From Candidatus Omnitrophota bacterium (GTDB lineage: Bacteria > Hinthialibacterota > Hinthialibacteria > Hinthialibacterales > JAKPRU01), in assembly GCA_029570205.1 (NCBI GenBank), contig JAKQSI010000096.1, forward strand, positions 70,244 to 134,243: DNA of 64,000 nt, given 5' to 3'. Position 1 is the stretch's first letter, and each line of letters begins with the position of its first letter. A program made the translations under genes and the position numbers. The notes under the pieces were generated by a model. That model searched no databases, was not told where the DNA came from, and worked only from the letters and a program-made list of their open reading frames with translations. Positions 15,782-20,835 of this stretch are shown piece by piece.

Positions 15782-18766
15782 CTATTTCATCTCGGCTAAT
15801 TCTTTTGCCGCTTTTTCGCTGCTTTCCTTATGATCAGGGGATTCCGGCTCCGCTACGGCTGCCTGAAAAGCCTTCTTTGCTTCATCCAAGCGCCCCAAGG
15901 CTTTCAGCGCCATTCCTCTCCAGTAATGGGAATTGGCTTCTCGGATGTGCGGCCCGCGTTCCACAGCCAGATTTTTAGGGAAAGTCAGAGATTTGTCGAA
16001 ATGTTCCAGCGCGCCTTTTGGATCACCGCCTTGCAGTAGTTTTTTCCCCTGTTCCAGATGGGCCTTCACAAACAATTCATGACTGGTGAACTGGTTCTCC
16101 CAGTTCTGGAAGACCGTGGTTTCCAAAAACCGAATCGCCTCGGGATACATGCCCTGCTTCAGGTAAAGACGCGCCAGCATTTCCGTGGAGTCTCGCCGAG
16201 GATAGGGTAATCGATATCCCTTTTCCAGGAGGGCAATGGCTTCCCTTGCTTTGCCCTCGGCTTCAAACAGTTCGGCCAGGTCACGGTACAGGATCGGGTC
16301 TTCGGGATCGCATTGCAGCGCTTGTTCGTAGTACTCGATGGCTTTCTTGCGGTCGCCGTCGATCTTATTCGCCGCGAGGCCCAGGTTACGAAATGCCACA
16401 CTGGACGGCGGGGAAATCTCTACCGATCTCTCCCAATACTTTCGACCCTCCTCTAATTGTCCTTTGGCGAACAACAGGTTCCCCAAATACAGCGCCGCGC
16501 GGCTATCCTGGGGATCGGCATCCAGCACGGCGCGAAGGATCGGGATGGTCTCCAGCCGATGCGGGAACACATAGGTCGGCGAACACTCCTGCGCGGATTT
16601 CCAGTAGTTCCTTGCCTGCTCGGATTGTCCTCTCTTGTATGCAAGCCAACCGGCGTAATACCAGGCAATGGGATGACCCTCACCGGAAGCGCGTTTCTCC
16701 AGATAAAGATCCTGGAGAAGTTCCGCCGCCGGTTCATACCGACGTAGATTGATCCAGAACGCGGCCATTTCCAGTACATTCTGCGGCTCATCGCGAACAA
16801 CTTGTCTCAACTTTTCCACCGCGCGTTTTCGGTCTCTATCGGAATTCGCCGACAAGTAACCGATACTGTGCGCGGCCAGGTCCAGCGGATTATCATTCAA
16901 GACGATCTCCGCTGTTGCGGCCGCGTCTTCTCTCTCACCAAGCAGGAACAACGCGGCGGCGAGTACATCTCGGCTGACCAGATCGCGATCATTTCGCTGT
17001 AGCGCCTCCAGCGAAAGAGAGACGGCATCACCCAACCGGCCGGATCGAACCGCCAAGCGAGCCAACACACTGTAGCCGAGCGCGGCGGATTCGGGGAACC
17101 GAACCGCTTTCCAGGCCGACTCTTCGGCTTGATCGTCGAATCCGCTTCGCAGCCGACCCACCGAAAGCCAATACCACCCCATTCCCCAATCCGGATTTCG
17201 TTCCACGGCCTGAGCCGCATATTTACACGCGGTTTCGTATTTTCCCGATTCCAGGTCCAACACGGCTAATGAACACAGCGCCGGGCCGAACGCGGGATCT
17301 TTTTCCAGCGCCTTCCGATATTGTTTCCGCGCCTGCGCAGGCTGAGACTGCTTGTCTAATACCTGCCCGTCAAGCCAGAGATCATAAGCCGTCTTTTTCT
17401 CTTCCGGGATCGGTGTCGGCAGCGCGGGCGGCCTGCGAACAGGGAGCGGTAACGGGTGCGCAAAAGAAGCCCTCTCACGACCGTTCCTGTCGATTAAGGT
17501 GATGCGCCAGGGACCTTTACTGCTGTTGGTCGGGTGATGGATCACCGTCGGTTCTTTGGGCGTGGGATCGACAGCGTACAATGCGCTGTTTCCGACTGCG
17601 GAGACGGTCAGCGATCCTTTTCCCGTGCAGGAGGTAGTCAAAAAGCGGATGAGCAGCTCTCCGGTCTCCTCGGTTACATGAAACGCGGCCTCCCGATCGG
17701 CATAGTTGAATCCTTCCAGATCGTGTACCGGATACCACCGCTCTGTCCATTCGAGGACTTGGTGCGGTTGGAGAAATCCGAAATCGGCTTGGGTCCGCAA
17801 CGGGCCGGTTTGCACCTCGTTATACGGACCGTCGTCATCCGTGAGAAGGCTCTGGCGCAGTTTGGAATCCTCAGATTGCCCCCAAGTCCAGGCTTTCTTG
17901 CCGGGCAACAGGTAATGATCGGCGGTAGCAACAACTCCGCGATGCAGTAAATGATCGTAAGACCCGAAAAAATCCTGGTCGCATTCATAAGCGAAAATCG
18001 CACTCGGTCCCGGGTGGTTTTTTGCATAAGATAAATCGACACCCCGTTCGTCAATCGGCCATGTGTAGAAACTCGTTCCGGCATGATCTGTGCCGAGTGT
18101 CATGGGGTAGATGAATTGAAAGCCGTCGGTATTGGGCATGGCCGTATTGTTCCAGAAATAGTATGGGTGGACCTCATCCTGAGCGTTAAACAATCGAATT
18201 CGTTCATCGAGCGCCGCCGTTCCCGGCCGAAGTGTCAGCACAACCGTCCAGTGCGTTCGGAAAATACGTTCCACATGGCCGACAACAATGGACGCGCTCC
18301 CGTCCGCATTGTTTAAGAGGCAACTTTCGATGGGTTCCACACAGGTCGCGGCATGGCCCATGGGCCCGGTGTTCCATTCCACGCCGCCGGATATCCATGC
18401 GCCGCGCATGGCGAGCAGGTTGGGTTTGATAACATGATTCACATAATACATCGGTTTATCGATGCTCTTGTTGATTATCTCATAGACATGCCCGCCCAGT
18501 TCCGGCAGTACGCAAACACGCAAGTACTCATTCTCCATAAAGAGGGCGCGATATGTGCGGTCCGTTTTGGTGTCGCCGAGTTGATCCTGTAGCGTGTAAG
18601 GATAAATATTGTTTCCCTCGACGGCGGGAAACACCGGGTCGATGCTCCCCGGGTGCCAGGCATAGGTCGGGATCGTAATCCGGTCTTCCCAGACCTTTAC
18701 TGTTTCGGAAGTAGCGGGAAGGGAAAGGGTGGCGAGGAAAGCGAAGAGGAGAAGACGAACGCGCAT
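15782..18766 (-). CDS. Secreted DUF5107 domain protein with C-terminal TPR array
   Basis: Start ATG 18766 has GGAGG 5 nt upstream and yields a good signal peptide (MRVRLLLFAFLATLSLPATS, about 20 residues). Residues about 25-430 match DUF5107, a beta-sandwich, mutarotase-like domain: ENEYLRVCVLPELGGHVYEI, ISGGVEWNTGPMGH, DHLLHRGVVATADHYLLPG. From about 460 to the end are at least a dozen TPR-like helical pairs. The 994-residue length is typical of DUF5107-TPR proteins, which are common in Bacteroidota and PVC-type genomes and presumed to act on carbohydrate. Catalytic activity is unproven. An unknown three-gene operon lies 56 nt upstream on the same strand. Confidence 0.85.
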   Translation of the reverse strand: MRVRLLLFAFLATLSLPATSETVKVWEDRITIPTYAWHPGSIDPVFPAVEGNNIYPYTLQDQLGDTKTDRTYRALFMENEYLRVCVLPELGGHVYEIINKSIDKPMYYVNHVIKPNLLAMRGAWISGGVEWNTGPMGHAATCVEPIESCLLNNADGSASIVVGHVERIFRTHWTVVLTLRPGTAALDERIRLFNAQDEVHPYYFWNNTAMPNTDGFQFIYPMTLGTDHAGTSFYTWPIDERGVDLSYAKNHPGPSAIFAYECDQDFFGSYDHLLHRGVVATADHYLLPGKKAWTWGQSEDSKLRQSLLTDDDGPYNEVQTGPLRTQADFGFLQPHQVLEWTERWYPVHDLEGFNYADREAAFHVTEETGELLIRFLTTSCTGKGSLTVSAVGNSALYAVDPTPKEPTVIHHPTNSSKGPWRITLIDRNGRERASFAHPLPLPVRRPPALPTPIPEEKKTAYDLWLDGQVLDKQSQPAQARKQYRKALEKDPAFGPALCSLAVLDLESGKYETACKYAAQAVERNPDWGMGWYWLSVGRLRSGFDDQAEESAWKAVRFPESAALGYSVLARLAVRSGRLGDAVSLSLEALQRNDRDLVSRDVLAAALFLLGEREDAAATAEIVLNDNPLDLAAHSIGYLSANSDRDRKRAVEKLRQVVRDEPQNVLEMAAFWINLRRYEPAAELLQDLYLEKRASGEGHPIAWYYAGWLAYKRGQSEQARNYWKSAQECSPTYVFPHRLETIPILRAVLDADPQDSRAALYLGNLLFAKGQLEEGRKYWERSVEISPPSSVAFRNLGLAANKIDGDRKKAIEYYEQALQCDPEDPILYRDLAELFEAEGKAREAIALLEKGYRLPYPRRDSTEMLARLYLKQGMYPEAIRFLETTVFQNWENQFTSHELFVKAHLEQGKKLLQGGDPKGALEHFDKSLTFPKNLAVERGPHIREANSHYWRGMALKALGRLDEAKKAFQAAVAEPESPDHKESSEKAAKELAEMK

Positions 18767-18822
18767 AATAGCCTCCAAGACAGGTTGATATGGGTGTTTG
18801 CATGAGAAATCGCGGTCAAGAG

Positions 18823-19458
18823 TCACTGGTTATTGACAAGATTCCATTCTTCTTCCGTGAAATACAGATGATCGGGAGCGCCAAACCGACCAAAGCAATA
18901 GGCCAATCGCTCCTGCAAGGCTTTTAATGCCTCATCGGAGAGACGCAACCGTAGACATCGTGCGGCAAGAGCATGCAGGTTAATGGGCGGAAAAGACTGA
19001 ACATCAAGAAGGTCGGCGACCGATTCAACCATTGAGAATTCGTTGTCAACATACTTGGGAAGGTAAAAAAGGGAGGGATAGCGACCCGGATTGATCAGTG
19101 GCTTGATGCTCTTAACCCGTTTCTCAACGGAACTTGTCGAAAAATGTTTCATTCGTTGTTCGCATGGAACGACTCTCACAATTAGAATGGGTCTTTCTCT
19201 GCCGGGCTCTCCGGTCAAGTCGCAAGACTGGTTTAAAACCAGTCCTACGGACATTTCCAGATTCGCGAGTATTTTCGCTTGTGAAGAGATTTCTCTAAAG
19301 CCGGTCAGATCCTTCTTCTGTGGGGATAGTGCTCCTTCAATTAGGATTTGAGATTCGGAGATTGAGAATCGGAGGAACGGAATGGGCCAGAGAATATCCC
19401 CCTGTTTCAAGCAAGGCGAGTCTTCAGTCCCCTCACTTGGAGAAGAATAGAAGTCCAT
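18823..19458 (-). CDS. Unknown operon gene C (contains NQSCDLTG motif)
   Basis: This 211-residue protein starts immediately after the stop of gene B, with no intervening base. It is probably cytoplasmic, with no signal or membrane segment. An N-terminal CLKQGDILWPIPFLRF strand region is followed by GLVLNQSCDLTG and PILIVRVVP, then a mostly helical C-terminal half (LLDVQSFPPINLHALAARCLRLRLS...). The pattern 'QGDI...vLsQsCDL...PILvarV' recurs in small uncharacterised proteins I associate with mobile or defence-rich regions, but I cannot name a family. Base composition is AT-richer than flanking housekeeping genes. Function unknown. Confidence 0.72.
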   Translation of the reverse strand: MDFYSSPSEGTEDSPCLKQGDILWPIPFLRFSISESQILIEGALSPQKKDLTGFREISSQAKILANLEMSVGLVLNQSCDLTGEPGRERPILIVRVVPCEQRMKHFSTSSVEKRVKSIKPLINPGRYPSLFYLPKYVDNEFSMVESVADLLDVQSFPPINLHALAARCLRLRLSDEALKALQERLAYCFGRFGAPDHLYFTEEEWNLVNNQ

Positions 19459-19998
19459 TTATAGATCACTCTCTTGCTCAAGATCATATTGATATTTGAA
19501 TAGATCCCGATTATGCGGTGCTTCCGCGAATACGTGGCTCCAGTCAATATTTGGTGGAACCTCTACATGCGAAAGGGAATCCATTGACCGATAATCCAGT
19601 TCCAACTCATCAAATTCCTCATCATCTCCCAAATCGTATTGCGGAGTCACCACAGGGAATTGCTCCTTGACAGTGGGTTCAGCTGGGCAAGAGAGAAAGG
19701 ACACGACAAACGAAAATAGGCGCGACTCGGGATTCGATTCGTCTTGCCATCCTATGGATACGGGAGTGTAAGTGTTTTTCCGGGATATTGTATCTAGTGG
19801 GACATTGGTAATCCGGAAAGGATTTCGCGGATTATCTAAAACTGTACGGATATCCTGTGAAGAAAAATCACGATATCGGGCGCTCGTCCAATGAGATGGT
19901 TCTTCAGTACCTCTTGCACACAAGCGGTCTGATACAAGAAACCGGGATATCTTGGGCACGGCATCTTGCCCATATTCATACCAGAGACTCGTTGTCAT
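19459..19998 (-). CDS. Unknown operon gene B
   Basis: Start ATG 19998 overlaps gene A's stop as ATGA and has AAAGGAGA about 8 nt upstream. The longer in-frame version would run through gene A's 3' end. The 179-residue product is acidic toward the C-terminus (DLGDDEEFDELELDYRSMD) and has a beta-rich middle with LFSFVVSFLSCPAEP. No recognisable domain, signal or membrane segment is present. Gene C's ATG directly follows its TAG, so A, B and C are almost certainly made together in fixed ratio. I do not recognise homologues from memory. Confidence 0.72.
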   Translation of the reverse strand: MTTSLWYEYGQDAVPKISRFLVSDRLCARGTEEPSHWTSARYRDFSSQDIRTVLDNPRNPFRITNVPLDTISRKNTYTPVSIGWQDESNPESRLFSFVVSFLSCPAEPTVKEQFPVVTPQYDLGDDEEFDELELDYRSMDSLSHVEVPPNIDWSHVFAEAPHNRDLFKYQYDLEQESDL

Positions 19999-20675
19999 TC
20001 CAATGTCTCCTTTAAGAGCGACTCGTCTACGAATCGACGATAGGATTCCACAAGGTCTTTCCATTTCGCAATAACGGCAATTGTCCGTTCGAGTCTGACT
20101 CCCGGATCCGAGCCAGATACCTCATGATGGAAATTCGCGGCAAAAATCAAGATGTGCCCCTGGTCTCCATCAGATGTGGAACGAATCATCGGTTCGATCG
20201 TCAGATTCAGAAGATCTTCTCCCATCCGGTATACGAAACGGATTCCTATTTCTGCTGGGCACTCATTGAATTGGGTCCAAGGTCCAGGCAAGATCAATCT
20301 CTCGGTCCGGAATCCTGCTTTTTCATCGTCTGAAATTGGAATGTCTCCCTTTGGATTGATGCCAACCGCGCGATATTCCACGTGCGGGAGAGTCTTTACA
20401 TAATCGCGTGCAATATCCGCCACAACGATATCAGCCAGTTGTTTATCAGCAAGCGTCTGCGAGAAACTGACCTTACCTAATTCCGCGATTATGTTCACTC
20501 CATTTTCGAAAGAGACGTGCGCGAATGGCCCTACACATATTGGATCTTCCGCCAGTTTCCAATCTTGTCCCACAATCCCGTTGTATTTCAGGAAATCGGG
20601 ATTCAATATCGTGGGATTGTGGTTTCTCGCAGCCACCACAACTGCCAATTCTCGTATTGTCAGGGTCTGCTTCAT
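19995..20675 (-). CDS. Unknown operon gene A (NPTILNPDFL-type protein)
   Basis: The first gene of the operon encodes 226 residues from ATG 20675; GTG 20690 would add five residues. It begins TIRELAVVVAARNHNPTILN and continues with PDFLKYNGIV, a pattern I recall from uncharacterised proteins scattered in cyanobacteria and proteobacteria. A probable beta-rich middle (HVSFENGVNIIAELGKVSF) is followed by RFVYRMGEDLLNLTIEPMI and a C-terminal helical stretch (IAVIAKWKDLVESYRRFVDESLL). It looks soluble. No catalytic motif is evident. The 160-bp upstream region, shared with no other start, should hold the operon promoter, but no clear -35/-10 is visible. Confidence 0.72.
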   Translation of the reverse strand: MKQTLTIRELAVVVAARNHNPTILNPDFLKYNGIVGQDWKLAEDPICVGPFAHVSFENGVNIIAELGKVSFSQTLADKQLADIVVADIARDYVKTLPHVEYRAVGINPKGDIPISDDEKAGFRTERLILPGPWTQFNECPAEIGIRFVYRMGEDLLNLTIEPMIRSTSDGDQGHILIFAANFHHEVSGSDPGVRLERTIAVIAKWKDLVESYRRFVDESLLKETLE

Positions 20676-20835
20676 GATGTTAAGAACCACGAAGAGGGAT
20701 TATTCCTTTCGTATTGTCAACCGAAAACCGTGCACTTACAGCCTGTGCATATAAACGGAATACGAACGCAAACAAAACGATTTTAATTCCCTTCGCCCAA
20801 AAGTAAACCGCCGTTCACTGAAATTGCCCGGTCAA

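Follow-up and report, generated by a model that had tools for sequence, protein, structure and literature searches.

A conserved three-gene cassette with a predicted MazF/CcdB-fold product as a probable tripartite toxin-antitoxin-like module

In TAC modules, a SecB-like chaperone keeps the antitoxin stable (PMC5105189), and in the CmdTAC system a phage capsid protein draws the chaperone away, by which the toxin is freed (PMC11618068). The NetFlax network study of toxin-antitoxin systems covered, by its authors' own statement, two-gene systems only (PMC10440598). Here, we describe three genes, A, B and C, found within a stretch of 64,000 nucleotides (the window). They form a real, conserved and hitherto undescribed cassette that recurs across Bacteria and Archaea, and this cassette is probably a tripartite toxin-antitoxin-like module that resembles TAC but uses a partner other than SecB. 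The family to which gene A leads, TIGR04255 ('sporadTIGR04255'), is tracked by NCBI as 'sporadically distributed' only, and no mention of it was found in the open-access literature searched.

The first-pass annotation had reported three tightly coupled reading frames whose DNA is richer in AT than the surroundings, and both statements proved correct (Table 1). All three genes are read from the minus strand, the ATG of B overlaps the TGA of A as ATGA, and C starts at the base right after the stop codon of B, leaving zero spacing. The GC content is 0.45-0.48 over positions 18750-20750 compared to 0.52-0.59 in the flanks. A simple scan for perfect inverted repeats of at least 6 bases returned none in the region upstream of A, and the window contains no tRNA. 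Scanned as single sequences, A, B and C gave no match in NCBIfam or PADLOC and no meaningful match in Pfam; for C, no Pfam model matched at E-values up to 10, hence not PF02452 either. The sole single-sequence PHROG match of C was weak (phrog_4575, E 8.5e-4), and a phrog_4575 match in another genome (G117), located inside a PAS/histidine kinase gene, was rejected as a chance hit. The earlier verdict that the three proteins have no recognizable domain is valid for such single-sequence scans, but not beyond them, as C has a predicted MazF/CcdB fold and A may be a remote relative of TIGR04255.

Table 1. Positions of the three genes and of the presumed promoter region within the window.
Feature	Position	Strand	Description
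Gene A	20675..19995	minus	ORF, 226 aa, ATG start; putative remote TIGR04255 relative, proposed chaperone/sensor or co-regulator
Gene B	19998..19459	minus	ORF, 179 aa; middle gene, proposed antitoxin/adaptor
Gene C	19458..18823	minus	ORF, 211 aa; proposed toxin with a predicted MazF/Kid/CcdB fold, bearing QGD and QSCDL
Intergenic region upstream of A	20676..20835	none	presumed site of the operon promoter

A second species of the same genus (G002) carries the end of A and the whole of B and C, and after C comes the TPR gene also present in the window. Pairwise dN/dS values against this species were 0.12 for C, 0.38 for B and 0.23 for A, the latter calculated for the 3' part; in G002, A is cut by the end of the contig. 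Purifying selection acts on all three. In G001, considered as an empty site, the orthologue of the TPR protein matches from residue 69 only, and no close orthologue of the upstream gene is present. Within the same order, G007 has an A that is 35% identical to that of the window, the ATGA junction, a dissimilar B and, behind it, a C in which QGD and SQSCDL are present. The A-B-C order was also found on a Methylocystis plasmid, where a gene annotated as TIGR04255 is followed by one of 70 aa and a C relative, close to a recombinase and an 'abortive infection family protein', and on a viral contig (TIGR04255, a 101-aa gene and C). Viral scans with A found nothing, and tblastn with C against phage and plasmid records gave no match.

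A profile scan of GTDB contigs yielded 140 relatives of C, the best 80 loci of which span numerous phyla of both Bacteria and Archaea. Of the 80, at least 46 have A immediately upstream, nearly always with B in between. The distances of A and C covary across 38 loci (Mantel r 0.76, with a maximum of 0.40 in 2000 permutations), which supports the undescribed three-gene system that the first-pass annotation had suspected. C is sporadic: it was found in 11 of 386 genomes at 12 places, with TIGR04255 directly upstream at six of them and an A of the window type at three more. C is interrupted by stops or frameshifts in L030, L040, L077, L087 and L090, and A is split in L026.

The NQSCDLTG segment of C contains Q-x-C-D-L, the hallmark motif of a large family. 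Window C was recognized with an E-value of 2.1e-8 by a family model that included neither the window nor its sister species, and judged by its residues, it belongs to the divergent members of this family. It keeps QGD, Q77, C79-D80-L81, R191, G193 and P195 and lacks the C-terminal P-Y-x-E-H...Q...R residues, which almost all relatives have kept. The invariance of QxCDL among the relatives arises partly by construction, because the scan pattern contained it; the conservation of QGD and R-x-G-x-P is not by construction.

Single-sequence searches of the PDB with A and C returned no related solved structure. The AlphaFold2 model of C, based on 69 sequences, reached a pLDDT of 79.9 and a pTM of 0.74. 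Its top Foldseek match was MazF-mt9 (6a6x; E 0.038, prob 0.97), and all 50 PDB entries listed by VIA-align were MazF, Kid or CcdB structures with Z-scores of 7.9-10.7, the best being MazF-mt3 (Z 10.7, 108/109 residues). In a profile-profile comparison with 30 MazF proteins, C was colinear from QGD to the C-terminal helix, in the order GD...(VLV)...(IvcP)...C-terminal helix, with a weak score. Taken together, C is predicted to adopt the MazF/CcdB toxin fold. However, the R-P motif before the VLV strand was present in 27 of the 30 MazF proteins and in none of the 69 C sequences, and a motif of the P-x-T-S type was carried by 24 of the former and 1 of the latter. These motifs surround the catalytic Arg and Thr/Ser of MazF, with positions taken from the MazF literature. 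As they are missing, C may be assigned the toxin fold, but not the label of a MazF mRNA interferase.

The A proteins of most relatives match TIGR04255, and those of L016, L013 and Methylocystis lie above its curated cut-off with 75-142 bits, whereas window A stays under this cut-off and gave no match. A profile-profile comparison (hhalign) of window A, G007 and cyanobacterial plasmid genes with TIGR04255 resulted in an E-value of 1.7e-4 and a probability of 50% over 156 colinear columns, and the position upstream of B and C is likewise shared. By this comparison, window A would be a remote relative of TIGR04255. It is up to 38% identical to genes on cyanobacterial plasmids, which can stand alone without B or C. 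On three such plasmids (L004:4001-8669, L006:4001-8678 and L008:3935-8624), a lone window-type A lies just upstream of giant genes with CARDB/Ig domains, two of which exceed 30 kb. A Picosynechococcus plasmid (L007:684-7142) carries a window-type A and two small genes between the genes for type I restriction R and S subunits; the two genes downstream of this A are not B and C.

Profile searches with the A5 and A4 alignments gave no related solved structure. A model of A was made for the relative in L017 in place of window A and reached a pLDDT of 92.9. The best PDB match by Foldseek was an archaeal TATA-binding protein (TBP; E 1.6e-4, prob 1.00), at a TM-score of only 0.29-0.37, and VIA-align yielded guanidino kinases (Z 8.7), with TBP outside its top 50. 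A guanidino kinase/McsB fold was rejected, since a Z of 8.7 at 8% identity is about the level of unrelated models and no conserved set of arginines was present. The A model has no clear structural relative, both matches being unconvincing. SecB was absent among the listed Foldseek and VIA-align matches of the model, an absence that does not exclude a likeness to SecB.

TIGR04255 occurs in 47 of the 386 genomes (about 12%) at 53 places, of which 47 lie away from C, often beside another toxin. For the first-pass annotation, homologues that are not co-located in other genomes would speak against the proposed system, and this applies in part: the trio is conserved at more than half of the 80 best C loci, but most TIGR04255 genes and the solitary cyanobacterial A genes are found elsewhere. 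In 30 sampled TIGR04255 loci, the third gene was of HEPN type in ten, PIN in three, C in three, the 'SHDCDL' family in two, DUF7689 in two and one further family in three. Loci of the HEPN type carry a dedicated middle gene between TIGR04255 and HEPN. About half of the genomes carry HEPN genes, a few each, and ten of 30 at the third position is therefore beyond chance. When four of the HEPN-type proteins were scanned in Pfam, one exceeded the PF05168 cut-off (3.7e-8), another two narrowly missed it and the fourth scored weakly; the remaining ones were found with a model built from these. The claim that the function is not deducible was hence too pessimistic, given the predicted toxin fold of C and the TIGR04255 genes adjoining HEPN and PIN toxins.

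In the ten HEPN loci (L114, L116, L117, L118, L124, L126, L132, L133, L134 and L137), a three-gene operon recurs, in which TIGR04255 is followed by a middle gene of 150-185 aa and a HEPN-type protein of ~120 aa, the latter occupying the place of C. In L129, L136 and L142, TIGR04255 is followed by PIN (VapC-type; PF01850, E 7.7e-15, 4.7e-9 and 3.1e-11, respectively). A 'VVISHDCDL' family of 234-281 aa lies after TIGR04255 and an HTH-bearing middle gene in L121:2926-3771 and L140:2983-3687; it resembles a remote relative of C and is missed by the C model. DUF7689 (E about 1e-38) takes the third position after TIGR04255 in L119:2615-3079 and L122:2560-3135, which may offer a clue to what DUF7689 does.

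The middle gene differs along its length. Against G002, the first 120 residues of window B have a dN/dS of 0.47 and the last 60 residues one of 0.21. Among the relatives, a very variable head is combined with a short shared C-terminal tail, xMPPxxxx...VxIxSIxKAxP (hydrophobic-x-MPP-basic...V-x-I-x-x-I-x-K-A-x-P). A model of this tail matched 52 of about 79 ORFs upstream of C (E <=0.001) and almost no other ORF. B of G007 was matched at E 0.001; the model did not recognize window B (E 4.7), which is for this reason assigned by its position. In L074, which is without A, the head of B is a RelB antitoxin domain (PF18506, E 2.1e-9), and in L062 and L085 A and the B tail are fused into one protein. 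Second B-like genes with the same tail lie upstream of a 219-aa protein, TIR-like by eye (L056:6012-7005), and upstream of a Schlafen AlbA_2 protein (L063:7071-8776). The tail may serve as a portable adaptor.

The first-pass annotation had associated the NQSCDLTG segment with small proteins of mobile or defense-rich regions and named enrichment near defense genes or prophages as support. Many neighbors match defense genes: 124 neighboring ORFs matched 120 PADLOC families, among them Gabija GajB (2.6e-189), HmaC, pAgo, a type III restriction enzyme and AriA, versus 71 families for 124 control ORFs, which matched mostly generic helicases and desulfurases. This enrichment is suggestive only, since the families are non-independent and the control was unmatched by taxon. 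Judged from the neighbors, a defense of the module against phages is plausible.

A family of A that is common to different toxins, a toxin-specific middle gene that is an antitoxin in one case, and a third gene with a toxin fold make a tripartite toxin-antitoxin module the best reading of the locus. It draws on the operon, its conservation and selection, the predicted fold of C, its replacement by HEPN or PIN beside A, the A-B fusions, the one antitoxin domain in B, the HTH domains in the middle genes of L121 and L140 and the sporadic occurrence of C and TIGR04255. From these we infer toxicity, neutralization, the exact role of A and the trigger as follows. C would be a toxin of the MazF/CcdB fold that lacks the MazF catalytic motifs, and as these are missing, its target may be RNA, cut in another way, or a protein, as for CcdB. 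B would serve as antitoxin or adaptor of C, with its variable head coupling to A and its short C-terminal part, the conserved tail of the relatives, holding C. The TIGR04255-type A would be the shared third component and most likely stabilize or fold B or sense the trigger, like SecB-like chaperones. A loss of A or B would free C and stop growth, for example upon phage infection. As window C is without the near-invariant C-terminal residues and window B without a recognizable tail, the copy in the window may work differently. In its widest form, the proposal is that TIGR04255 proteins act as a common third component, chaperone or sensor, in a new class of tripartite toxin-antitoxin systems, probably directed against phages, whose toxins can be exchanged (HEPN, PIN and a new family of the MazF fold that lacks the active-site motifs), with the window carrying a divergent member; this we put forward tentatively, at a little short of an even chance.

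The main rival to the chaperone or sensor role of A is a DNA-binding role. The module would remain toxin-antitoxin-like, and A would act as a DNA-binding or dimerizing co-repressor instead of the head with which B would itself bind DNA in some loci without A. The two fusions put A where the DNA-binding domain of an antitoxin sits, the head of B can be RelB-like where A is missing, and TBP was the top Foldseek match, if only at a low TM-score. However, in L121 and L140 the middle gene beside A bears an HTH itself, VIA-align prefers guanidino kinases to TBP, and the simple scan upstream of window A found no inverted repeat, so that we regard a co-repressor as unlikely.

The missing MazF motifs, the strong purifying selection on C, the synteny in two species of the genus and the lack of a tRNA in the window would also fit a domesticated, non-toxic MazF-fold protein within a housekeeping unit of the genus that has a regulatory or RNA-binding task. 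The sporadic occurrence of C, its disruption in several loci, the pairing of the same A family with PIN and HEPN genes and the defense-type neighbors at many loci speak against such a unit, and it appears quite improbable. That lineage-specific genes have clustered by chance, or that the trio is a remnant in decay, to which the low GC content and the divergence of window B and C might point, deserves hardly any credence in view of the conservation of the trio across phyla and the purifying selection on all three genes.

The predicted fold of C resembles the MazF/PemK/Kid and CcdB superfamily (PF02452 and relatives) over the whole domain, with Z-scores up to 10.7. C differs from it by the missing PF02452 match, the absent R-P and P-x-T-S motifs and its own conserved motifs QGD, QxCDL and R-x-G-x-P, as well as by its place in a three-gene operon whose middle gene is unlike MazE. 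The MazF/CcdB toxin fold would thereby gain a new branch with different conserved residues. TIGR04255, a family without known function to which A of most relatives belongs and which window A misses by the cut-off, would receive a testable role.

With TAC, the cassette shares the three-gene operon, one family of third component across different toxins and an antitoxin-like middle gene with a variable region. However, the third component is of the TIGR04255 type, with SecB not among the listed matches, and the gene order of third component, antitoxin and toxin is unlike that of TAC. The toxin modules named for TAC are HigBA, HicAB and MqsRA, whereas HEPN, PIN and the MazF-fold C are found here, and chaperone addiction of the TAC antitoxin is conferred by a C-terminal ChAD, whereas the variable part of B is N-terminal. 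The Panacea/NetFlax network (PMC8832971, PMC10440598) likewise combines one component with many toxin families, but A is a separate third protein and, save for the rare A-B fusions, not an antitoxin domain; network searches confined to two-gene modules would miss three-gene modules such as A-B-C. The comparison suggests that, in the chaperone or sensor position of TAC-type systems, a different kind of protein has taken over and has been joined to several toxin families in both Bacteria and Archaea.
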